Source: Citrobacter sp. Cu233
Lineage (GTDB): Bacteria > Pseudomonadota > Gammaproteobacteria > Enterobacterales > Enterobacteriaceae
Assembly (NCBI RefSeq): GCF_030332225.1
Contig: NZ_JAOWIF010000028.1
Coordinates: 496,001-560,000, forward strand
Length of the DNA stretch: 64,000 bases
Direction of reading: 5' to 3'
In this document: positions 7,014 through 64,000 of the stretch, in pieces
How positions within the stretch are numbered: the first letter of the stretch is position 1
How the letters are laid out: every line of letters begins with the position of its first letter
Notes under the pieces: model-generated
What the model saw: only the letters and a program-made list of their open reading frames with translations
Told to the model about the DNA's origin: nothing
Databases searched by the model: none
Program-made: the position numbers and the translations under genes

Positions 7014-8003
7014 TCAGCCGCCAATGTAAGATAAGTTTTGCGTAATACCGGTATTATTCTGATGCAGGAAATGGGTCTGCTTTTTCTCCAGCAACGCGGC
7101 AGAGATACGTTCTTCAAGCGCAGACTGCTGGGCGTCGTCTGTCAGCAAATCACGCAAGTTCACCCCGCCTTCACCAAATAAACACAGATGAAGTTTGCCG
7201 ACGGATGAAACACGCAGGCGATTGCAGGTGGCGCAGAAGTCTTTCTCATAAGGCATGATAAGACCAATTTCACCGGCATAATCAGGATGACAGAAAACCT
7301 GAGCCGGACCGTCGCTGCGCTGGCGTAACTGGTGGATCCAGCCGCGCTTGAGCAGTTCATCGCGCAGTACCTGCCCGGAGATATGGTGTTTGCGAAAGAG
7401 AGAGCTGCCCTCACCCGTTTCCATCAGTTCAATAAAACGTAGCTGAATCGGCCGCGGTTGAACCCAGGCCAGGAAGGTATCCAGTTGATGATGGTTTACA
7501 TCGCGCATCAACACGGTGTTGACTTTCACTTTTTCAAAACCGGCATCGAAGGCGGCGTCAATCCCCGCCATCACCTGCTGAAACTTATCCTGCCCGGTAA
7601 TAGCGTGAAACTGACGGGCATCGAGACTGTCGACGCTGACGTTGAGTGCCGTCAGCCCGGCATCGCGCCATGCAGCAGCATCGCGCGCCAGACGATAACC
7701 ATTGGTGGTTACCGCAATCTGACGGATAGCGTCGTTTTCACGTACAGCAGCAATAATGTCGGTAAAATCGCGACGCAGTGACGGTTCGCCACCTGTCAGA
7801 CGCACCTTTTCCGTTCCCAGACTGGCGAACGCACGTGTGACGCGGCGAATTTCATCAACGGTCAGAAAGCCGTTATTAGTCACGCCACCAGGCTTATAGC
7901 CATCTGGCAGACAGTAGGTGCAACGAAAGTTACACACATCGGTAATCGACAAACGCAAGTAGTAAAACTTACGCGCGAATGCATCGGTAAGTTGAGAGCC
8001 CAT
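7014..8003 (-). CDS. moaA: GTP 3',8-cyclase MoaA (radical SAM)
   Basis: Starting at ATG 8003 ([15 protein letters not shown]) gives 329 residues, the usual length. An in-frame ATG at 8069 would add 22 codons, but that stretch is the riboswitch leader, so the short start is chosen. The radical-SAM cluster CNFRCTYC is at residues 24-31; a second Fe-S site is in [18 protein letters not shown] near residues 257-274; the chain ends in the conserved Gly-Gly. It makes the cyclic dihydro-GTP intermediate, the first step of molybdenum cofactor synthesis. First gene of moaABCDE. Confidence 0.97.
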
Positions 8004-8011
8004 GTACACCT

Positions 8012-8115
8012 TTCCAAATACGGGAGGCGAAGTCATTTCTTCCTGCGCCCTGGTGACAATCGTATTCACGTATCGTCACGGCCAAAGCACCGTATCATTT
8101 GACCCAGGTGCAGAG
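8012..8115 (-). ncRNA. Moco riboswitch in the moaA leader
   Basis: The 5' leader of moaA can fold like the Moco RNA motif known from E. coli moaA. On the minus strand ATACGG (8090-8095 region) pairs with CCGTAT (8018-8023), enclosing a GTGACGAT/ATTGTCAC hairpin and a GAAG/CTTC hairpin. The CTCTGCACCTGGGTCA entry sequence and the AAAGGTGTACATG exit overlapping the ribosome site are kept. In E. coli this element lowers moa expression when cofactor is plentiful. The identification is by sequence memory and hand folding. Confidence 0.85.
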
Positions 8116-8202
8116 GCTAGAGTGTTTATACTCGTCATGCTTTGAGTACATTGTGGTTATGCCGATACTAGCGTGTAAATGACACTTTTGCCATGTACAC
8201 TT

Positions 8203-44095: not shown

Positions 44096-44113
44096 TGGTG
44101 GGTCGTGCAGGAT
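44096..44113 (-). repeat. 3'-end fragment of tRNA-Lys inside the operon spacer
   Basis: Eighteen bases (minus strand ATCCTGCACGACCCACCA) equal the last 18 bases of the tRNA-Lys gene at 44198, CCA included, but the rest of the tRNA is absent. The 84 bases between the fragment and the intact gene hold short GC-rich hairpins (CCCTGACGGG, GTTGCTCTCGCAAC). It resembles the tRNA-end repeats known from the E. coli tyrT (rtT) operon. Confidence 0.85.
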
Positions 44114-44197
44114 GACTCGACTTCGTCTCGCCCTGACGGGCCGTTGCTCTCGCAACGTTATCCTTCACGTTTTACTATCGCGTTCCACCAGAACGAT

Positions 44198-44273
44198 TGG
44201 TGGGTCGTGCAGGATTCGAACCTGCGACCAATTGATTAAAAGTCAACTGCTCTACCAACTGAGCTAACGACCC
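44198..44273 (-). tRNA. tRNA-Lys (anticodon TTT), first gene of the operon
   Basis: 76 bases with CCA and the standard GGGTCGT acceptor. It is the first tRNA after the promoter; in E. coli this position is lysT. Confidence 0.97.
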
Positions 44274-54690: not shown

Positions 54691-55140
54691 ATGAAGAAAT
54701 CTACACTTGTTATTGGCGTCATCGGTGCTGACTGCCATGCAGTAGGCAATAAAGTTCTGGATCGCGTTTTTACTGCTCATGATTTTCACGTAATCAACCT
54801 CGGGGTGATGGTGAGCCAGGATGAATATATTGATGCCGCAATTGAAACAGGCGCCGATGCCATCGTGGTGTCCTCCATCTACGGCCACGGCGACATTGAC
54901 TGCCTCGGCCTGCGTGAGCGCTGCATTGAACGCGGCCTGGGCGACATTCTGCTGTATGTCGGCGGTAACCTTGTCGTGGGCAAACATGATTTTGCCGATG
55001 TCGAAGTGAAGTTTAAAGAAATGGGCTTCAACCGCGTTTTCGCCCCCAGCCATGACCTGGAAGATGTCTGCTCGCTTATCACTAACGATATTCACCAACA
55101 CAATGGCCTCGAACAGCGTTGCCTGGAAGAGGCCATCTGA
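54691..55140 (+). CDS. glmS: Glutamate mutase (methylaspartate mutase) sigma subunit
   Basis: A 149-residue B12-binding protein. The cobalamin signature D-x-H-x-x-G is at Asp14-His16-Gly19 in [27 protein letters not shown] and [10 protein letters not shown] are further nucleotide-loop motifs. With GlmE it moves the glycyl group of L-glutamate to give (2S,3S)-3-methylaspartate using adenosylcobalamin. Also called mutS in clostridia; not the glucosamine synthase GlmS. AGAGGA precedes the ATG. First gene of the cluster; its stop shares a base with glmL. Confidence 0.96.
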
Positions 55141-56534
55141 TGCAAACAGTTTCTGTCGATATCGGCTCGACATGGACCAAGGCAGCCCTCTTCGCACAGG
55201 AAGGAGAGGTGTTAACGCTGGTCAATCATGTCCTGACCCCAACCACCACACATCATCTGGCAGACGGTTTTTTTGCCAGCCTGAATCAGGTGCTGAATGT
55301 TGCCGATGCTCGCCCGTTACTGAAAAGTGGTGAAGTGCAGTTGAAGTACTCCTCCTCAGCCAAAGGTGGACTCGCTGTTGCAGCAATGGGGCTGGTGCCT
55401 TCCATTACGCTGGAATCGGCGAAAGTTACCGCTCACTCGGCAGGAGCGAAAATCGCGCAATATTATTCGTACAAGCTGAACCGTCATGACATCCAGGAGC
55501 TGGAATCCGTACCGCCAGATATCCTGTTGTTTACGGGTGGTACAGATGGCGGTGAAGAAAGCTATGGATTGGCCAATGCGCGTGCACTGGCGGATTCGAA
55601 GCTTGATTGCGCCATCATCTATGCCGGAAACCGTGATATTCAGGACGAAATACAAACGATTCTGGGCCACAAAGATCTGACCACGGTAGACAACATCCTG
55701 CCGGATCTCGATCACCCGAATCCGTTTGCCGCTCGTCAGGCCATTTGCGATGTGTTCTTGTCACGCATCGTAAAAGGTAAAGGTCTTGACGTCATCGTGG
55801 GTGAAACAGGCGAAGACCCCATGCCGACGCCGTGGACGGTGTATGAACTGGTAAAAGCAATTAGCGATTACGACAGCGCATGGAAGGAATTCATGCTGAT
55901 CGATATGGGTGGCGCCACCACGGATGTCTATTCAGCCAGCGCGAATACCCTCTCCCCCGATACTGTCCTGCATGGTGTCCCAGAACCTTTCGTCAAACGT
56001 ACCGTTGAAGGTGATTTGGGCATGCGCGTTTCCGCCGTCGTGGTGGGAGAAAGCACGCAGGAGATGGTGAAAGTTGTTTTCGCCCAACAGCCACAACGTG
56101 AGGAGGCGTTTTATCGCTACCTGCGCCATCTGGTTGGGCAGCCGGACTACCTGCCAGTCAACGAGGAAGAGAAATATTTCGACACTCTGTTAGCAGGTTT
56201 GTGCGTGGGCTATGCCGCTGAGCGCCACGCGGGCACTAAGAAGCAGGTTTGCACCTGCGTCGGTAACGTGGATTTACAGATGGGTCGCGATCTCACCACC
56301 GTACGGAAAGTTGTCGGTTCAGGGGGATGGCTCTCTCGCGCCAGCCAGTTCGATATCCATAACTGGCTCAAATACCGGGAGCTGGACGACCAGGGTAAAA
56401 GAATTCTGTTACCGAATCAGTTTGAGTATTACCGCGATTCATATGGCCTGCTCCCGCTACTGGCAAACGTCGCCAGGCTGTACCCGCAAGCCGCTGCTCG
56501 CACCAGCATTCAGTGTTTAACCCTACAAAACTAA
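55140..56534 (+). CDS. glmL: Glutamate mutase accessory protein GlmL/MutL
   Basis: ATG 55140 ([18 protein letters not shown]) gives 464 residues and overlaps the glmS stop as TGATG. The protein is of the ASKHA ATPase fold: VDIGSTWTKAALF near the N terminus is phosphate-1, FTGGTDGGEES and MLIDMGGATTDVYS are later nucleotide motifs. It is found between the two glutamate mutase subunit genes in many bacteria and probably reactivates the enzyme by exchanging damaged cobalamin, as in other B12 eliminases; that role is inference. Unrelated to the mismatch-repair MutL. Confidence 0.92.
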   Translation: MQTVSVDIGSTWTKAALFAQEGEVLTLVNHVLTPTTTHHLADGFFASLNQVLNVADARPLLKSGEVQLKYSSSAKGGLAVAAMGLVPSITLESAKVTAHSAGAKIAQYYSYKLNRHDIQELESVPPDILLFTGGTDGGEESYGLANARALADSKLDCAIIYAGNRDIQDEIQTILGHKDLTTVDNILPDLDHPNPFAARQAICDVFLSRIVKGKGLDVIVGETGEDPMPTPWTVYELVKAISDYDSAWKEFMLIDMGGATTDVYSASANTLSPDTVLHGVPEPFVKRTVEGDLGMRVSAVVVGESTQEMVKVVFAQQPQREEAFYRYLRHLVGQPDYLPVNEEEKYFDTLLAGLCVGYAAERHAGTKKQVCTCVGNVDLQMGRDLTTVRKVVGSGGWLSRASQFDIHNWLKYRELDDQGKRILLPNQFEYYRDSYGLLPLLANVARLYPQAAARTSIQCLTLQN

Positions 56535-56546
56535 AGGCAGCTACGA

Positions 56547-57992
56547 ATGGAACTTCGAAATAAAAAATTGACCCACGACGAATTCATGACCGAAAGGCAT
56601 CAGGTATTGCAAACCTGGGAAACCGGCAAAGACGTTGAGAACTTCGAAGATGGCGTGAAGTACCAGCAATCAATTCCAGACTCAAAGCGCTTCTCCCTCG
56701 CGCTGTTGAAGGCCGATCAAGAAGGTAAAACGCTGAGCCAGCCGCGTGCGGGCGTCGCACTCATGGATGAGCATATTGAGCTGCTTAAAACATTGCAGGA
56801 AGAATGTGACCTCCTGCCAAGTACAATCGATGCTTATACCCGTCTGAACCGCTATGAAGAAGCGGCTGTCGGGATCCAAAAATCTATCGAGGCGGGCACC
56901 TCCAAACTGAATGGTTTACCTGTCGTCAATCATGGGGTTGCTGCCTGCCGCCGTATGACTGAGTCGCTGGAAAAACCAATCCAGGTCCGCCACGGTACGC
57001 CAGATGCCCGTCTGCTGGCAGAAATCGCCATGGCCAGTGGTTTTACCAGCTACGAAGGCGGCGGTATCTCCTACAACATCCCTTACGCCAAACGCGTCAC
57101 CCTGGAAAAATCCATTCGTGACTGGCAGTACTGCGATCGCCTGATGGGACTGTACGAAGAAAATGGTATTCGCATCAACCGTGAACCGTTTGGCCCGTTG
57201 ACTGGCACCCTGATCCCCCCGTTTATGTCCCACTCGGTAGCGATTATCGAAGGTCTGCTGGCACTGGAACAAGGCGTGAAGTCTATTACCGTCGGTTACG
57301 GCCAGGTCGGTAGTTTGACTCAGGATATCGCCGCCATTCAGGCACTGCGTGAACTGTCCCACGAATACTTCCATAACCACGGCTTCGATGATTATGAGCT
57401 GAGTACCGTATTCCACCAGTGGATGGGCGGATTCCCGGAAGATGAAGCAAAAGCCTTCTCCGTTATCGCCTGGGGTGCTGCGGTTGCTGGCATGTCCGGT
57501 GCCACAAAAGTCATTACCAAGAGCCCGCATGAAGCCTTCGGCATCCCAACCGCCGCGGCTAACGCTCAGGGTCTTAAAGCGTCACGCCAGATGCTTAACA
57601 TGGTGAGCGACCAGAAGTTCCCGCAGTGCGCTGCCGTGGAACAGGAAGTCGAACTGATTAAGAGTGAAGTCCGCGCAGTACTGAAAAAAGTCTTCGAGCT
57701 GGGTAATGGCGACATTGCACGCGGTACGGTACTGGCCTTTGAAGCCGGTGTTCTGGATGTTCCCTTCGCCCCAGCCGCCTGCAACGCAGGCAAAATTCTG
57801 CCGGTGCGCGATAACACAGGTGCTATCCGTATTCTCGAAGCCGGTGCGGTTCCACTGCCGAAAGACATTCTCGCGCTGCACCACGACTACGTCTCAGAGC
57901 GCGCACATTTTGAAGGTCGCAAACCTTCTTTCCAGATGGTCATTGATGACATCAACGCCGTATCCCACAGTAAATTAATAGGAAGACCATAA
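56547..57992 (+). CDS. glmE: Glutamate mutase epsilon subunit
   Basis: 481 residues, close to the 483 of the Clostridium cochlearium subunit. It is the TIM-barrel catalytic subunit that binds glutamate and faces the cobalamin of GlmS; VNHGVAACRR, GFTSYEGGGISYNIPYAKRVTLEKSIRDWQYCDRL and HQWMGGFPEDEAKAF are family blocks with substrate arginines. It starts 12 bases after glmL and its TAA overlaps the mal ATG by one base. Confidence 0.96.
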   Translation: MELRNKKLTHDEFMTERHQVLQTWETGKDVENFEDGVKYQQSIPDSKRFSLALLKADQEGKTLSQPRAGVALMDEHIELLKTLQEECDLLPSTIDAYTRLNRYEEAAVGIQKSIEAGTSKLNGLPVVNHGVAACRRMTESLEKPIQVRHGTPDARLLAEIAMASGFTSYEGGGISYNIPYAKRVTLEKSIRDWQYCDRLMGLYEENGIRINREPFGPLTGTLIPPFMSHSVAIIEGLLALEQGVKSITVGYGQVGSLTQDIAAIQALRELSHEYFHNHGFDDYELSTVFHQWMGGFPEDEAKAFSVIAWGAAVAGMSGATKVITKSPHEAFGIPTAAANAQGLKASRQMLNMVSDQKFPQCAAVEQEVELIKSEVRAVLKKVFELGNGDIARGTVLAFEAGVLDVPFAPAACNAGKILPVRDNTGAIRILEAGAVPLPKDILALHHDYVSERAHFEGRKPSFQMVIDDINAVSHSKLIGRP

Positions 57993-59233
57993 TGAAAATT
58001 AAACAGGCCCTTTTCACCGCTGGCTACTCCTCATTTTATTTTGACGATCAGCAGGCCATCAAAAACGGCGCAGGTCATGACGGCTTTATCTATACCGGTG
58101 ATCCGGTAACGCCAGGCTTTACTTCTGTGCGTCAGGCAGGTGAATGCGTATCCGTACAGCTGGTTCTGGAAAACGGCGCGGTCGCAGTGGGTGATTGCGC
58201 GGCGGTGCAATATTCAGGTGCCGGCGGTCGTGATCCGCTGTTCCTGGCTGAGAACTTCATTCCGTTCCTCAACGATCACATCAAACCACTGCTGGAAGGT
58301 CGTGACGTTGATGCATTCCTGCCGAATGCCCGTTTCTTTGACCAACTGCGTATTGACGGCCATCTGCTGCATACCGCCGTTCGTTATGGTCTGTCTCAGG
58401 CACTGCTTGACGCGGCGGCACTGGCCACCGGTCGTCTGAAAACTGAAGTGGTATGCGACGAGTGGCAACTGCCGTGCGTACCGGAAGCCATTCCATTATT
58501 TGGTCAGAGTGGTGATGACCGCTATATCGCCGTCGACAAAATGATCCTCAAAGGTGTGGATGTCCTGCCGCATGCGCTGATCAACAACGTTGAAGAGAAG
58601 CTGGGCTTTAAAGGCGAAAAACTGCGTGAGTATGTGCGTTGGCTGTCCGACCGTATCTTAAGCCTGCGCACCAGCGAGCGTTATCACCCGACGCTACATA
58701 TCGATGTGTACGGCACGATCGGCCTGATTTTTGATATGGACCCAGTGCGCTGCGCCGAATACATCGCCAGCCTGGAAGCCGAAGCGCAAGGCCTGCCGCT
58801 GTACATTGAAGGTCCGGTTGATGCCGGCAACAAACCGGATCAGATCCGCATGTTGACCGCCATCACCAAAGAGCTGACCCGTCTGGGCTCCGGCGTGAAA
58901 ATCGTGGCTGATGAATGGTGTAACACCTATCAGGACATCGTGGACTTCACCGATGCGGGCAGCTGCCACATGGTGCAGATCAAAACCCCGGACCTGGGCG
59001 GTATTCACAACATCGTTGATGCGGTGCTGTATTGCAACAAACACGCCATGGAAGCTTATCAGGGCGGTACCTGCAACGAAACCGAGATCAGTGCTCGCAC
59101 CTGCGTCCACGTCGCACTGGCCGCACGTCCAATGCGCATGCTGGTAAAACCGGGTATGGGATTCGATGAAGGTCTCAACATCGTGTTTAACGAAATGAAC
59201 CGCACCATCGCGCTGTTGCAAACTAAGGATTAA
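57992..59233 (+). CDS. mal: Methylaspartate ammonia-lyase
   Basis: 413 residues. From memory it is almost identical to the structurally known C. amalonaticus enzyme. It is an enolase-superfamily lyase: metal ligands in the HIDVYGTIG (Asp238), YIEGPVD (Glu273) and VADEWCN (Asp307) regions, catalytic Lys331 in VQIKTPDLGG, and GGTCNET. It removes ammonia from 3-methylaspartate to give mesaconate. Second catabolic step after glutamate mutase, translationally coupled to glmE. Confidence 0.97.
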   Translation: MKIKQALFTAGYSSFYFDDQQAIKNGAGHDGFIYTGDPVTPGFTSVRQAGECVSVQLVLENGAVAVGDCAAVQYSGAGGRDPLFLAENFIPFLNDHIKPLLEGRDVDAFLPNARFFDQLRIDGHLLHTAVRYGLSQALLDAAALATGRLKTEVVCDEWQLPCVPEAIPLFGQSGDDRYIAVDKMILKGVDVLPHALINNVEEKLGFKGEKLREYVRWLSDRILSLRTSERYHPTLHIDVYGTIGLIFDMDPVRCAEYIASLEAEAQGLPLYIEGPVDAGNKPDQIRMLTAITKELTRLGSGVKIVADEWCNTYQDIVDFTDAGSCHMVQIKTPDLGGIHNIVDAVLYCNKHAMEAYQGGTCNETEISARTCVHVALAARPMRMLVKPGMGFDEGLNIVFNEMNRTIALLQTKD

Positions 59234-59236
59234 GAG

Positions 59237-60607
59237 ATGGCACGCACATTTAAGATCTTATCGCCTACGGCTATCCTGGGTTATGGCTTCCCGGAAGAGA
59301 GTTTTCGTAAAGCCATGGAAGAGTCACCGGATCTTATTGCTGTTGACGCAGGTTCCTCCGATCCGGGCCCCCACTACCTGGGGGCAGGTAAACCCTTCAC
59401 TGACAGGGCCGGGGTAAAACGCGATCTACGCTATATGATCGTGGCGGGCGTTAAGAACAACATCCCAGTGGTCATCGGTACCGCGGGTGGTTCCGGTGCT
59501 GCTCCGCATCTGGAGTGGTGCCGCCAGATAATCCATGAGATTGCCCAGGAAGAAAAACTGTCTTTCTCAATGGCGCTGATTCCGTCTGATGTTGATAAAG
59601 AAGTGGTTCACCAGGCACTGGATAACGGCAAAATCACCGCGCTGGATTTCGTGCCTGAGTTAACCCACGAAGCCATCGAAGACAGCACCTACATCGTCGC
59701 ACAGATGGGTGTCGAACCTTTCCAGCGTGCGCTGAAAGCGGGTGCACAGGTTGTTCTGGGCGGACGTGCTTACGATCCAGCCTGCTTCGCGGCGCTGCCC
59801 ATCATGCAAGGCTTTGATGAAGGTCTGGCGCTACACTGCGGTAAGATCCTTGAGTGTGCTGCCATTGCAGCAACCCCTGGCTCCGGCTCGGATTGCGCAA
59901 TGGGGATCATCGACGACAACGGCTTTACGCTGAAAGCGTTCAATCCAAAGCGTAAGTTCACCGAAACCTCCGCTGCGGCGCATACCTTGTACGAGAAGTC
60001 CGACCCGTACTTCCTGCCGGGACCGGGCGGCGTACTGAATCTGAAGGCATGTACTTTCACCGCAGTTAACGAAGGCGAAGTGTATGTCAGCGGTTCGCGT
60101 CATGAAGAAACGCCGTATGCGCTGAAACTGGAAGGCGCACGTCAGGTTGGCTTCCGCTGCCTGACTATCGCCGGGACGCGCGATCCGATAATGATTGCCG
60201 GTATCGACACCATTCTCGAAGAGGTACAGGCAAGCGTGGCACGTAACCTCTCACTGAATGATGACAGTATCCGCATGACGTTCCACCTCTACGGTAAGAA
60301 TGGCGTGATGGGCAATCATGAACCGATGAAAACCGCCGGTCATGAACTGGGGATTTTACTGGACGTCGTCGCGCCAACGCAGGATATCGCCAACAGCGTT
60401 TGCTCGCTGGTGCGCTCTACCCTACTGCACTACGGCTATGAAAATCGTATTGCGACCGCGGGCAACCTCGCTTTCCCATTCTCACCATCTGATATTCAGA
60501 GTGGGCCGGTGTATGAGTTCTCGATCTATCACCTGATTGAAGCAAGCGATGCACTGCGGTTTGATTTCCACATTGAGCAGGTGACGCCAGAAGGAGTTCA
60601 GGCATGA
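59237..60607 (+). CDS. AtuA-like (DUF1446) protein of the glutamate cluster
   Basis: 456 residues of the acyclic terpene utilisation AtuA family. Visible conserved stretches are VDAGSSDPGPHYLGAG near residue 36, IGTAGGSGAAPHLEW near 81, QVVLGGRAYDPACFAALP near 173 and GPGGVLNLKACTFTAVNEGEVYVSGSR near 255. No cofactor motif is certain. AtuA itself is needed for citronellol/geranyl catabolism but its reaction is not defined. The gene is three bases after mal and overlaps the DUF4387 gene by four bases, so the two products probably form a complex. Candidate roles are on mesaconate, citramalate or their CoA esters; this is inference. Confidence 0.88.
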   Translation: MARTFKILSPTAILGYGFPEESFRKAMEESPDLIAVDAGSSDPGPHYLGAGKPFTDRAGVKRDLRYMIVAGVKNNIPVVIGTAGGSGAAPHLEWCRQIIHEIAQEEKLSFSMALIPSDVDKEVVHQALDNGKITALDFVPELTHEAIEDSTYIVAQMGVEPFQRALKAGAQVVLGGRAYDPACFAALPIMQGFDEGLALHCGKILECAAIAATPGSGSDCAMGIIDDNGFTLKAFNPKRKFTETSAAAHTLYEKSDPYFLPGPGGVLNLKACTFTAVNEGEVYVSGSRHEETPYALKLEGARQVGFRCLTIAGTRDPIMIAGIDTILEEVQASVARNLSLNDDSIRMTFHLYGKNGVMGNHEPMKTAGHELGILLDVVAPTQDIANSVCSLVRSTLLHYGYENRIATAGNLAFPFSPSDIQSGPVYEFSIYHLIEASDALRFDFHIEQVTPEGVQA

Positions 60608-60921
60608 AACAGTCAATTTGTTCACTGGCGCAGGTCATTCGCTCCAAAAATGCCGGACCGTACGAACTGGTTTTAGATATTTTGTTTAAAACCCGGGAAG
60701 ACTATCAGCGAGTAAAGCGTTCGGAGCAATTAACTCCGCAGCTTATTGCTGGATTATATAATGTCGAACCTGACTTTATTCACAATATTGTCTGGTTTGA
60801 CCCCGCGAACGCAGTAAAAATTGTCATGCCGCGCGATATTATTTCCGGAAATGTCGGTGACAATGATGTTTATGGCGCACAGCAACACGCACCATTATTA
60901 AGTATTGAATTCGATCTGTAA
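60604..60921 (+). CDS. DUF4387 protein, partner of the AtuA-like protein
   Basis: A 105-residue soluble protein (MKQSICSLAQVIRSKNAGPYELVLDILF...). The SKNAGPYELVLDILFK pattern is the DUF4387 hallmark, a domain that occurs fused or next to AtuA-type proteins. No catalytic residues can be assigned. The ATGA overlap with the preceding gene implies coupled translation and equal amounts of both proteins. A 168-base gap with no clear terminator separates it from the carrier gene. Confidence 0.87.
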   Translation: MKQSICSLAQVIRSKNAGPYELVLDILFKTREDYQRVKRSEQLTPQLIAGLYNVEPDFIHNIVWFDPANAVKIVMPRDIISGNVGDNDVYGAQQHAPLLSIEFDL

Positions 60922-61089: not shown

Positions 61090-62394
61090 ATGAAGAAAAT
61101 TAGTTTAACGAAGATGATCATATTAGGCCTGATACTCGGCATGATTGCCGGGGTGGCTATTAATAATATGGCCGCGGCTGAAACAGCAAAATCATATGCA
61201 CAGGATATTTCCATTTTCACCACTATATTCTTACGTATGGTGAAGATGATTATTGCGCCATTGGTTATTTCAACTCTGGTTGTCGGTATTGCCAAGATGG
61301 GCGATGCCAAAACGCTGGGGCGTATATTTTCTAAAACCTTTTTCCTGTTTATTTGTGCCTCACTGCTGTCGATCGCATTGGGTCTGGTTATCGTTAATAT
61401 CTTCCAGCCGGGCGCAGGCATCAACTTTGTTGCTCATGACGCAGGCGCTGTTGCCGCTGTTAAGTCAGAGCCGTTCACGCTGAAAGTCTTTATCTCACAT
61501 GCCGTACCAACCAGTATCGTTGACGCGATGGCGCGTAACGAAATCCTGCAGATCGTGGTGTTCTCCATTTTCCTTGGTTGCAGCCTGGCCGCAATCGGTG
61601 AAAAAGCCGAGCCTATCGTTAAGGTTCTGGATTCGCTGGTACACGTCATGCTGAAGCTGACAGGCTACGTCATGCTGTTTGCCCCACTGACCGTTTTCGC
61701 TGCTATTTCCGGCCTGATTGCCGAGCGAGGTCTGGGTGTAATGGTCAGCGCCGGTATCTTTATGGGCGAGTTCTACCTGACACTGGGCATGCTGTGGGCA
61801 ATTCTGATTGGCCTGTCGACACTCATTGTTGGTCCTTGCATCAGCCGCCTCACCAAATCCATCTTCGAACCGGCGCTGCTGGCCTTTACCACGTCCAGTT
61901 CTGAAGCGGCCTTCCCTGGCACGCTGGATAAGCTGGAAAAATTCGGTGTATCGTCAAAAATTGCCAGCTTCGTGCTGCCGATCGGTTACTCCTTTAACCT
62001 CGTCGGCTCCATGGCCTATTGCTCCTTTGCCACCGTCTTTATTGCCCAGGCGTGCAACATAGAACTGAGCATGGGCGAGCAAATCACCATGCTGCTGATC
62101 CTGATGCTGACCTCAAAAGGGATGGCGGGTGTGCCACGTGCATCCATGGTGGTTATTGCCGCTACGCTGAACCAGTTCAACATTCCGGAAGCCGGTTTGA
62201 TCCTGCTGATGGGCGTCGATCCGTTCCTGGATATGGGGCGTTCAGCCACTAACGTCATGAGTAATGCCATGGGGGCTGCCATTGTAGGTCGCTGGGAAGG
62301 TGAACACTTTGGTTCAGGCTGCCGCGGAACAGCACCCGTCAAAACACCGGAGCAAGAACGCCCGGTTACCGAAACAGAGGTCGCGTTGTCCTGA
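61090..62394 (+). CDS. DAACS-family dicarboxylate/glutamate:cation symporter
   Basis: 434 residues with the GltP/DctA layout: an N-terminal helix, MVKMIIAPLVISTLVVGIAKM, TTSSSEAAFPGTLDKLEKFGV (the serine-rich re-entrant hairpin), PIGYSFNLVGS and DPFLDMGRSATNVMSNAMGAAIV (substrate-binding helix 8, here with DMGRSATNV). Context predicts uptake of glutamate, or of a related dicarboxylate such as mesaconate. GGAGTACAC precedes the ATG. It is flanked on the 3' side by a REP pair. Confidence 0.92.
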   Translation: MKKISLTKMIILGLILGMIAGVAINNMAAAETAKSYAQDISIFTTIFLRMVKMIIAPLVISTLVVGIAKMGDAKTLGRIFSKTFFLFICASLLSIALGLVIVNIFQPGAGINFVAHDAGAVAAVKSEPFTLKVFISHAVPTSIVDAMARNEILQIVVFSIFLGCSLAAIGEKAEPIVKVLDSLVHVMLKLTGYVMLFAPLTVFAAISGLIAERGLGVMVSAGIFMGEFYLTLGMLWAILIGLSTLIVGPCISRLTKSIFEPALLAFTTSSSEAAFPGTLDKLEKFGVSSKIASFVLPIGYSFNLVGSMAYCSFATVFIAQACNIELSMGEQITMLLILMLTSKGMAGVPRASMVVIAATLNQFNIPEAGLILLMGVDPFLDMGRSATNVMSNAMGAAIVGRWEGEHFGSGCRGTAPVKTPEQERPVTETEVALS

Positions 62395-62519: not shown

Positions 62520-63521
62520 ATGACTAAAACTCTTCCCGGCGTGAGTCTCTTTGTTTTCAGCGTCTTGTTTAGCTCTGCCTCATTCGCGCAAACCACGCCG
62601 GACTACGCAAGGCTAATAGAGCAGGCACATCAGAAATACAAAAGTAACAATGATGGAAAAGTCGCCGACTACATCCCTGCCCTGGCGAGCTACAGTCCCA
62701 ATAATTTTGCCATCACCGTTGCCACGGTAGACGGAAAAATCTACCAGGTGGGTGATGTTAAAAAGCCCTTCCCGATGGAGTCCCTGAGTAAAGTCTTCAC
62801 TATGGCGCTGGCCATGGAGCAGCACGGTCCTCAGGTGGTTCTGGATAAACTCGGGGCCAATGCCACCGGCATGCCATTTAATTCAGGTTTAGCCGTTGAA
62901 CTCACTAAAGGCGCGCCGGAAAACCCGCTGGTGAATGCAGGTGCAATGAGCACCGTCAGCCTGATTGAGGCCAAAGACAAAACCGATCGCTGGAACAAAA
63001 TCCTCGACAACCTGAATGTCTGGGCGGATGCCTCACTGACGGTCAACGAACCGGTATTCAAATCCGAGATGGAAACCAATCAGCACAACCAGGCACTGGC
63101 GAAGCTGATGGAGTCCTATAACAGTTTCTACGGCAACACAGAGGAAGCGGTCGAAATTTATACCCGCCAATGCTCAGTGGACATCACCGTTGAGCAACTG
63201 GCCAAAATGGGTGCCGTACTCGCGAACAAAGGCAAATCGCCCTTCAACGGTAAGCAGTTGCTGAATGAAAGCTATGTACCACAGGTGCTGGCTGAAATGG
63301 CCATTGCCGGACTGTACGACGGCAGCGGTAAATGGTTGTACAGCGTCGGTATTCCGGCGAAAAGCGGCGTTGGCGGCGGAATGGTTGCTGTTGTCCCGGG
63401 TGAATATGCCATTGCCGTCTATTCTCCGCCGTTGGACGAAGCCGGTAACAGCGTTCGTGCACAGAAAACTATCGAATATGTCGCTGACGCGACCAAAGCC
63501 AATGTCTTTTTAGCAAAATAA
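62520..63521 (+). CDS. Periplasmic glutaminase (serine-dependent, GlsA family)
   Basis: 333 residues. Unlike E. coli GlsA1/GlsA2, it starts with a signal peptide (LPGVSLFVFSVLFSSASFA, cleavage before Gln24), so the enzyme should act in the periplasm. The beta-lactamase-like core has S88-L-S-K91 (FPMESLSKVF), NPLVNAGAM, and SGVGGGMVAVVPG near residue 285. It converts glutamine to glutamate and ammonia, feeding the neighbouring carrier and glutamate mutase. REP elements lie on both sides, suggesting separately tuned mRNA stability. Confidence 0.93.
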   Translation: MTKTLPGVSLFVFSVLFSSASFAQTTPDYARLIEQAHQKYKSNNDGKVADYIPALASYSPNNFAITVATVDGKIYQVGDVKKPFPMESLSKVFTMALAMEQHGPQVVLDKLGANATGMPFNSGLAVELTKGAPENPLVNAGAMSTVSLIEAKDKTDRWNKILDNLNVWADASLTVNEPVFKSEMETNQHNQALAKLMESYNSFYGNTEEAVEIYTRQCSVDITVEQLAKMGAVLANKGKSPFNGKQLLNESYVPQVLAEMAIAGLYDGSGKWLYSVGIPAKSGVGGGMVAVVPGEYAIAVYSPPLDEAGNSVRAQKTIEYVADATKANVFLAK

Positions 63522-63615: not shown

Positions 63616-64000
63616 ATGTCTAAACCATTTGTCTGGCAGGAGCTCTTTGTTCAGAGTAAAGATAATACCGAATATGAATTGCTCAGTAATCAACATATTA
63701 CTGTGACAGAGTTAGACGGAGAGGAAGTTATTAAGGTTGCGCCGGAAGCGTTAACCTTGTTAGCACAGCAGGCATTTTATGAGGCCTCTTTTTTCCTGCG
63801 CGCCGGACATTTGAAACAGATTGCCAGCATTTTACACGATCCACAGGCCAGCAGTAATGACAAGTATGTCGCATTACAGCTGCTGCGCAATGCCGAAGTC
63901 TCAGCCAAAGGCGTACTACCAAACTGCCAGGACACTGGTACCGCCACCATTGTCGCCAGCAAAGGCCAGCAGGTCTGGACCGGTGGCGATGATGCCGAAG
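63616..64000 (+). CDS. fumD: Class I fumarase / mesaconase, N-terminal part (cut by window end)
   Basis: From ATG 63616 (preceded by AGAGGTGAGAAG) 128 codons are visible; class I fumarases have about 550. [22 protein letters not shown] and [15 protein letters not shown] match FumA/FumB, with Cys104 as first ligand of the 4Fe-4S cluster. In E. coli O157:H7 the paralogue FumD in the equivalent cluster hydrates mesaconate to (S)-citramalate. Position makes that the likely role; ordinary fumarase activity is the alternative. Confidence 0.85.

Follow-up and report, generated by a model that had tools for sequence, protein, structure and literature searches.

An AtuA-like/DUF4387 gene pair in the Citrobacter methylaspartate operon very probably encodes the two-subunit citramalate lyase CmlAB

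The gene pair and its locus

The window analysed here is a 64,000-nucleotide stretch of Citrobacter sp. Cu233 DNA. Within its methylaspartate operon lie two adjacent genes for an AtuA-like protein and a DUF4387 protein, hereafter CmlA and CmlB. The initial annotation had placed two coupled genes between mal (methylaspartate ammonia-lyase) and a carrier gene, and the coordinates and domain matches bear this out (Table 1); the two reading frames share the letters ATGA, a 4-bp overlap. CmlA scored 73.9 bits (E 1.5e-20) against the Pfam family AtuA (PF07287), above the curated cut-off of 22.8 bits, and this was its sole Pfam match at E <= 0.01. CmlB likewise exceeded the cut-off of 27 bits for DUF4387 (PF14330), with 135.3 bits and E 1.3e-39.

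For each gene, a sequence search of the PDB returned one strong match, and entries 9erq and 9evf contain both matched proteins. CmlA aligned with "Citramalate lyase, subunit A (cmlA)" over 456 of 456 residues at 97% identity (E = 0), and CmlB with "Citramalate lyase, subunit B (cmlB)" over 104 of 105 residues at 95% identity (E 1.6e-65). The entry 9EVF, released on 2025-10-08, is titled "Citramalate lyase - ADP - pyruvate complex", ADP being adenosine diphosphate. Together the two entries hold four chains of each subunit, consistent with a CmlA–CmlB complex, as had been proposed earlier from the tight coupling of the genes. Supporting this assignment, the two genes are adjacent and lie inside the methylaspartate operon together with a mesaconase-type fumarase gene. 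Sequence comparison thus makes it very probable that the two genes encode CmlAB, an (S)-citramalate lyase of two subunits that completes the methylaspartate pathway and most likely cleaves its substrate without coenzyme A (CoA) or acyl carrier protein (ACP). The pair, described as of unknown function by the initial annotation, is no longer a mystery, because near-identical proteins (95–97% identity) were recently crystallised as citramalate lyase. The statement that the window holds no citramalate lyase was also mistaken, the pair itself very probably being that lyase, and the fumarase gene beginning at 63616 had been overlooked. The enzyme is therefore already known rather than new; its remaining interest lies in its chemistry, its wide spread under misleading names and a family-level prediction.

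Cleavage of citramalate had been one of several earlier guesses, and it is supported by the PDB names and by the mutual replacement with CitDEF described below. Another guess was CoA activation. Activation of citramalate with CoA, or a role in the handling of citramalyl-CoA, would agree with the acyl-CoA genes that adjoin some AtuA proteins, but neither a CoA-transferase nor a citramalyl-CoA lyase was found when 14 proteins of the operon and its surroundings were scanned, and the 9EVF title names ADP and pyruvate as ligands but no CoA. We regard a CoA-dependent role as very improbable.

Table 1 Features of the methylaspartate operon in the window
Feature	Position	Strand	Evidence and remarks
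glmS (mutS): glutamate (methylaspartate) mutase subunit S, B12-binding	54691..55140	+	NCBIfam NF002612/TIGR01501 above cut-off
glmL (mutL): mutase accessory protein	55140..56534	+	NCBIfam TIGR01319/NF040745 above cut-off
glmE (mutE): methylaspartate mutase subunit E	56547..57992	+	NCBIfam TIGR01503 above cut-off
mal: methylaspartate ammonia-lyase, product mesaconate	57992..59233	+	NCBIfam TIGR01502 above cut-off; PDB 1kko E 2.7e-280
cmlA: predicted citramalate lyase subunit A	59237..60607	+	456 residues; AtuA family PF07287; PDB 9erq/9evf match
cmlB: predicted citramalate lyase subunit B	60604..60921	+	105 residues; DUF4387 PF14330; PDB 9erq/9evf match
SDF-family dicarboxylate/amino-acid symporter	61090..62394	+	Pfam PF00375 E 6e-104
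glsA: glutaminase A (glutamate supply)	62520..63521	+	NCBIfam NF009020/TIGR03814 above cut-off
class I fumarase, 5' part (FumD/mesaconase type)	63616..64000	+	Pfam PF05681; gene runs past window end

The glmL start given in Table 1 is our choice; the listed open reading frame begins at 55119 with TTG. The Mal protein of the window is nearly identical to PDB chain 1kko, which we take to be Mal from Citrobacter amalonaticus. The complete fumarase comprises 550 residues (locus L002, 10616-12268) with both PF05681 and PF05683, and by homology it would convert mesaconate into citramalate. After the remainder of this gene, beyond the window end, follow genes for a CobO/BtuR adenosyltransferase, a LysR-type protein, a tetrapyrrole methylase and a PocR-type regulator. 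The corrinoid adenosyltransferase, methylase and PocR-type genes (L002, 12278-16046) adjoin the B12-dependent mutase operon and apparently provide its cofactor supply and regulation. The genome of the window (4.79 Mb, 44 contigs) contains one AtuA match, and the Escherichia coli versions of the pair are ~81% identical to the window pair at the DNA level. Elsewhere in the window, a molybdenum cofactor (Moco) riboswitch lies far above its Rfam threshold (7991-8136, minus strand), and a match to RtT RNA, slightly over its threshold (44096-44266, minus strand), overlaps a tRNA-Lys/tRNA-Val cluster; both are ordinary.

Linkage to mal and alternation with CitDEF

The 149 genomes sampled from the enterobacterial family include 15 with true Mal (E < 1e-100) and 14 with DUF4387, and every genome of the latter group also carries Mal. 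The strict threshold matters for this count: 96 of the 149 genomes match the Mal family at E <= 0.001, and 17 Mal matches passed the search cut-off, the two in excess (4e-6 and 7e-6) being taken as other enolase-superfamily enzymes. Searching the loci with tblastn recovered the order glmS-glmL-glmE-mal-cmlA-cmlB-symporter in 14/14 DUF4387 genomes, with the pair directly behind mal each time. This gene order is more than chance, and it supports the earlier view that the pair belongs to the pathway. A FumD-like gene was found in 11/14 stretches (once on the opposite strand), a looser linkage than that of the pair. Among 5426 E. coli genomes, 1081 matched the pair (1078 of them over at least 80% of the query) and 1081 matched mal, the two being counted separately. 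The cassette can also be mobile, because a conjugative IncFIB plasmid from Salmonella Macclesfield (NZ_CP022118.1; L219, 3458-14602) has the complete set of ten genes from glmS to cobO in the window order.

Outside the enterobacteria, we inspected 80 mal loci, the best 80 of 579 confirmed relatives, mostly from Clostridia and Fusobacteria. CitE/CitF accompanied mal in 66 of them and CmlAB in 3, with both in 0 and neither in 11. In the three CmlAB loci (L124, L145 and L147), CmlA and CmlB lay directly behind mal. CitF had no match anywhere in these three genomes; three control genomes gave 2 or 3 matches. Directly downstream of cmlAB, the same loci encode a P-loop-like protein of ~310-330 residues (L124 13064-14008, L145 13104-14033, L147 12982-13977) with only sub-threshold nSTAND1 or tRNA_SAD matches; its relatives occur in 19/80 mal loci, some of them with CitDEF.

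L145 belongs to an Oscillospiraceae metagenome-assembled genome. Within 398 genomes of its phylum, DUF4387 occurred in 92, Mal in 73 and CitF in 28, and Mal and DUF4387 occurred together in 60 (Fisher p 1e-34). The pair is thus not rare. The 73 Mal genomes comprised 55 with DUF4387 only, 7 with CitF only, 5 with both and 6 with neither, and within this group DUF4387 and CitF tend to exclude one another (p 5e-4). In 50/60 genomes, Mal was encoded upstream of DUF4387 in the same orientation and no more than 8 kb away (no more than 3 kb in 44/60). When 20 loci were fetched, picked from the best-scoring 30 of the 92 DUF4387 genomes, CmlA was beside CmlB in 20/20 and mal was within the stretch in 16/20. 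Two unrelated lyases therefore seem to serve the pathway, and the AtuA type seems the commoner in the 398-genome sample, because 55 Mal genomes have DUF4387 without CitF and 7 have CitF alone.

A single enterobacterial genome, G133 (94% complete), carries mal without DUF4387 in the family sample. Its mal stretch (L041) reads glmS-glmL-glmE-mal-symporter and contains neither cmlAB nor fumD. Two CitF genes were found in G133; one belongs to an ordinary enterobacterial citrate lyase (82% identical to E. coli CitF). The other lies in a second citCDEF set on another contig (contig 16; L160, 8136-11906), and its CitF shares 62% identity with a CitF from a clostridial mal cluster and 47% with that of E. 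coli. In a tree of 59 CitFs, built without CitFs from clostridial genomes lacking mal, it nests with the mal-linked CitFs in a clade of 43 including itself (FastTree support 0.934). The extra clostridial-type citCDEF suggests that this lineage, which has no cmlAB, acquired the other lyase; the second set is likely, in this one case, a natural replacement of CmlAB. Collectively, CmlAB and CitDEF apparently replace each other at the lyase step.

This alternation bears on two further explanations. The citrate lyase CitDEF of the genome might itself cleave citramalate and leave the pair some other role in the pathway: a strong CitF match lies ~108 kb away in the genome of the window, and 12/15 Mal-positive family genomes have CitF. 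On the other hand, CitF had no match in 3/14 family CmlAB genomes (G076, G093 and G145), and the cassette holds the pair, not citDEF, in 14/14 genomes and carries it along on the Salmonella plasmid. A tblastn search of the 20-kb operon region (L002) gave no match to CitF, CitE or CitD at E <= 1e-6. In addition, the available text of PMC4682846 describes E. coli O157:H7 cells that, when grown on citrate, were rich in citrate lyase activity but had no citramalate lyase activity. These activity data, together with the CmlAB genomes without a CitF match, led us to reject the citrate lyase explanation, which we consider exceedingly improbable. Repair of a side product or isomerisation of a mesaconate isomer, two other earlier guesses, would account for the gene position only; CitDEF, the enzyme with which the pair alternates, serves as the lyase and not in repair, and such roles seem barely credible.

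Proposed chemistry and protein anatomy

With CmlAB as the lyase, the pathway would run from glutamate to 3-methylaspartate by GlmES with GlmL and B12, on to mesaconate by Mal and to (S)-citramalate by the FumD-type fumarase, and would end with cleavage to pyruvate and a C2 acid by CmlAB. According to the accessible portion of PMC4682846, FumD of E. coli O157:H7 is a mesaconase that makes citramalate. There, no citramalate lyase activity was detected in citrate-grown cells, nor in acetate- or propionate-grown cells with isocitrate or methylisocitrate lyase, and the authors called the fate of (S)-citramalate still unclear. The sequence data suggest that CmlAB fills this gap in enterobacterial glutamate fermentation, which was put in print in 2015.

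How the cleavage proceeds is addressed by two readings. As a leaving group, free acetate is very poor, a problem that citrate lyase and the clostridial citramalate lyase overcome by an ACP thioester. Given the ADP in the crystal, an acyl-phosphate mechanism would be the simplest alternative to such a thioester. Adenosine triphosphate (ATP) would phosphorylate the carboxylate of the leaving CH2-COO- group, and retro-aldol (retro-Claisen-type) cleavage of the activated citramalate would yield pyruvate, acetyl phosphate and ADP. The acetyl phosphate could then be used by acetate kinase or phosphotransacetylase, and ATP would be recoverable through acetate kinase. We put this ATP-dependent chemistry forward tentatively, as quite possible though short of probable. 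In Rhodococcus gordoniae (NZ_CP101468.1; L228, 999-3705), a phosphate acetyl/butyryl transferase gene (PTA_PTB) lies directly upstream of split AtuA and AtuA_ferredoxin genes, a single case that offers a lead for acyl-phosphate chemistry.

Alternatively, CmlAB could cleave free (S)-citramalate by metal-stabilised enolate chemistry, comparable to that of isocitrate lyase, with the ADP in 9EVF as an inhibitor, effector or crystallisation ligand. Isocitrate lyase-type enzymes do act on unactivated hydroxy acids, the cassette requires no other ATP-linked gene, and CmlA has invariant acidic and histidine residues that could bind a metal (D37, D42, D180, E206, H249, E253, E299, E370 and H432, invariant in 11 sequences). 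Yet the 9EVF title names ADP and pyruvate together, AtuA is the only Pfam family recognised in CmlA, isocitrate lyase is absent from the 50 listed fold matches of a CmlA model of modest confidence, and four conserved basic residues of CmlB (R13, K15, K72 and R77) suit phosphate or carboxylate binding. Direct cleavage is conceivable, but we hold it to be on the doubtful side.

Conservation was assessed over 40 loci chosen by DUF4387 (14 enterobacterial, 23 from other Pseudomonadota, and L124, L145 and L147), many of them close relatives. CmlB residues R13, S14, K15, G18, D25, K72, R77, G82 and D88 were kept in at least 95% of rows; eight CmlB residues were fully conserved, including the four basic ones. 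The CmlA positions kept in at least 95% of rows include D37, G39, S40, D42, G81, G84, G87, G176, R177, D180, E206, H249, Y252, E253, K297, L298, E299, E370 and H432. K203 of CmlA, invariant in 11 sequences, was kept in 85-95% of these rows. An AtuA-like gene was beside or fused to DUF4387 in all 14 enterobacterial and 23 other loci, at L058 as a short matching stretch only, and two loci (L061 and L062) encode AtuA-like/DUF4387 fusions.

The terpene-type AtuA combines PF07287 with PF23544 (AtuA_ferredoxin), either fused (L223, L224 and L226) or as two genes (L227, L228 and L230). Pfam gave no PF23544 match in CmlA or CmlB. In a profile alignment, DUF4387 and PF23544 proteins matched along their whole length (96 columns) and had an RS motif in common close to the start (hhalign P 2e-4, probability 46%, seven-sequence set). 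A separate run gave a probability of 18% and a score above all 200 column-shuffled profiles. Of two hhalign comparisons of DUF4387 with two AtuA sequences, one aligned a wrong region at 1.6% and the other gave a weak match at 4.4%. From profile homology, the matching fused and split architectures, and this colinear alignment, CmlAB is likely a split AtuA, with CmlA (~450 residues) and CmlB (~100 residues) corresponding to the two domains of AtuA and DUF4387 resembling a detached form of the C-terminal one. In a tree of 68 CmlA sequences, the smallest clade with all 36 mal-linked proteins (support 0.755) also holds 13 non-mal ones, among them the long-branched fusions L061 and L062, so mal-linked CmlA is not isolated in the tree. 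The position of the two fusions may be an artefact. A scan of viral contigs gave one partial relative. The predicted CmlA structure, built from four sequences, was of modest confidence (mean predicted local distance difference test score 64.7), and Foldseek found no match beyond 9evf at E <= 0.001 for either subunit.

Several points weigh against the assignment of the pair as a citramalate lyase that completes the pathway, or against the proposed chemistry. No paper linking AtuA/DUF4387 to citramalate lyase was found in the literature searched, which leaves most subscription journals outside, and the activity accordingly rests on the names given by the depositors. ADP in one crystal is no proof of ATP use, and with the modest CmlA model and 9evf as the only Foldseek match, no nucleotide site was located. 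The alternation has exceptions, namely the 11/80 mal loci with neither CitE/F nor CmlAB nearby and, among the 73 Mal genomes of the 398, the 5 with both DUF4387 and CitF and the 6 with neither. The Fisher p-values are also optimistic, because the genomes are related and kinship was ignored. In the family sample, 3/14 stretches have no FumD gene near the pair, and divergent relatives of the pair occur in other contexts, in genomes with no Mal match. Finally, the authors of PMC4682846, in the text available, could not identify conditions in which the glutamate fermentation genes of E. coli ATCC 700728 were expressed, and glutamate neither supported nor stimulated anaerobic growth of this strain; use of the pathway in it is thus unproven.

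Relatives outside the pathway and comparison with known lyases

According to the initial annotation, finding the pair regularly without mal would speak against its role. Such pairs do occur: 32/92 DUF4387 genomes in the phylum of L145 have no Mal, and Mal had no match at E <= 1e-30 in 23/23 non-enterobacterial Pseudomonadota DUF4387 genomes, two of them less than 80% complete, although the same model found Mal in the enterobacterial family. We do not take the role in the Citrobacter operon as refuted by this, and view the mal-less pairs as members of a wider family that acts on other substrates, or as parts of other routes to citramalate.

To characterise these contexts, 30 chosen neighbours were scanned at 12 chromosomal non-enterobacterial loci. 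A carboxylate transporter (TctABC, CitMHS, 2HCT or TRAP) lay beside the pair in 6/12 loci (L060, L062, L063, L064, L066 and L067), one of which also has an aconitase-family protein; no such transporter was found among the chosen neighbours at L049, L050, L055, L056, L059 and L061. Plasmids gave further examples. Twelve Klebsiella plasmid records match CmlA, and the gene context, taken from NZ_MK104259.1 alone (L221, 1204-10300), comprises LysR, a 56%-identical AtuA-like protein, DUF4387, aldehyde and alcohol dehydrogenases, and a class I fumarase. Other plasmid pairs adjoin TctC-type proteins, and a Methylobacterium pair is beside neither a fumarase nor a TctC-type protein.

On plasmid pHAMBI1141b of Neorhizobium galegae biovar officinalis HAMBI 1141, AtuA-like and DUF4387 genes are likewise followed by a class I fumarase gene (L220, 8963-22435; NZ_HG938357.1, ~29.0-42.4 kb). 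The genes before the pair encode an APC permease, a ferredoxin-reductase-like protein, an aldehyde dehydrogenase, a class III aminotransferase and a 2Fe-2S ferredoxin, and then, up to the pair, an agmatinase-like ureohydrolase, a P450 and an alcohol dehydrogenase. Galegine is the prenylguanidine of the host, Galega officinalis. The run would fit a galegine pathway in which the guanidine is removed, the product deaminated and both ends oxidised to mesaconate, followed by fumarase and CmlAB. The plasmid pHAMBI540a of biovar orientalis, which belongs to the collection searched, was not among the matches listed, which cover 60 of the 76 records, all plasmids, matching the galegae AtuA-like protein. 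From their gene content, the mal-less plasmid pairs with class I fumarase in Klebsiella and Neorhizobium look like other routes entering at mesaconate.

Extending the acyl-phosphate idea, the whole AtuA superfamily (AtuA with AtuA_ferredoxin, and AtuA-like with DUF4387, fused or split) might consist of ATP-dependent lyases for tertiary or other beta-hydroxy acids that act through an acyl phosphate of the leaving carboxylate, with no CoA, ACP or biotin attached to the group that leaves. CmlAB would turn citramalate into pyruvate and acetyl phosphate, terpene-degrading members would turn 3-hydroxy-3-isohexenylglutaryl-CoA into the oxoacyl-CoA, and the divergent pairs beside TctABC, CitMHS, 2HCT or TRAP would act on hydroxy di- or tricarboxylates. 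The leads are ADP and pyruvate in 9EVF, PTA_PTB in Rhodococcus, and the transporter neighbours in 6/12 loci and on several plasmids; as a statement about the entire superfamily, it is speculative and rather unlikely. Either way, the names "acyclic terpene utilization" and "DUF4387" in databases hide the probable lyase role and could be corrected. CmlAB would also anchor the AtuA superfamily structurally and chemically, and would provide testable predictions for other pathways ending in mesaconate.

Among known systems, CmlA and CmlB of 9ERQ/9EVF, a two-chain complex, are closest: both subunits align end to end with the window pair, and no difference was found. The terpene-type AtuA is more distant. 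Its main domain is homologous to CmlA (hhalign 98.8%, E 4e-17) at ~22% identity and its small second domain can be aligned end to end with DUF4387, and the chemistry proposed for it likewise releases acetate from a tertiary beta-hydroxy acid. It differs in carrying PF23544 (fused in 3/6 and split in 3/6 scanned), with examples among acyl-CoA or biotin-carboxylase genes. The ACP-dependent citramalate lyase of Clostridium tetanomorphum, of the CitDEF type, performs the same reaction step, and CitE/F accompany mal in 66/80 loci; its proteins are unrelated to CmlAB, and it requires an ACP with a prosthetic group and the maturation genes CitC, CitX and CitG, none of which matched in the operon region of the window. 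Citrate lyase CitDEF offers parallel chemistry, cleaving its substrate into an oxo acid and acetate. It belongs to an unrelated family, and citrate-grown E. coli O157:H7 showed no citramalate lyase activity in the available text of PMC4682846.

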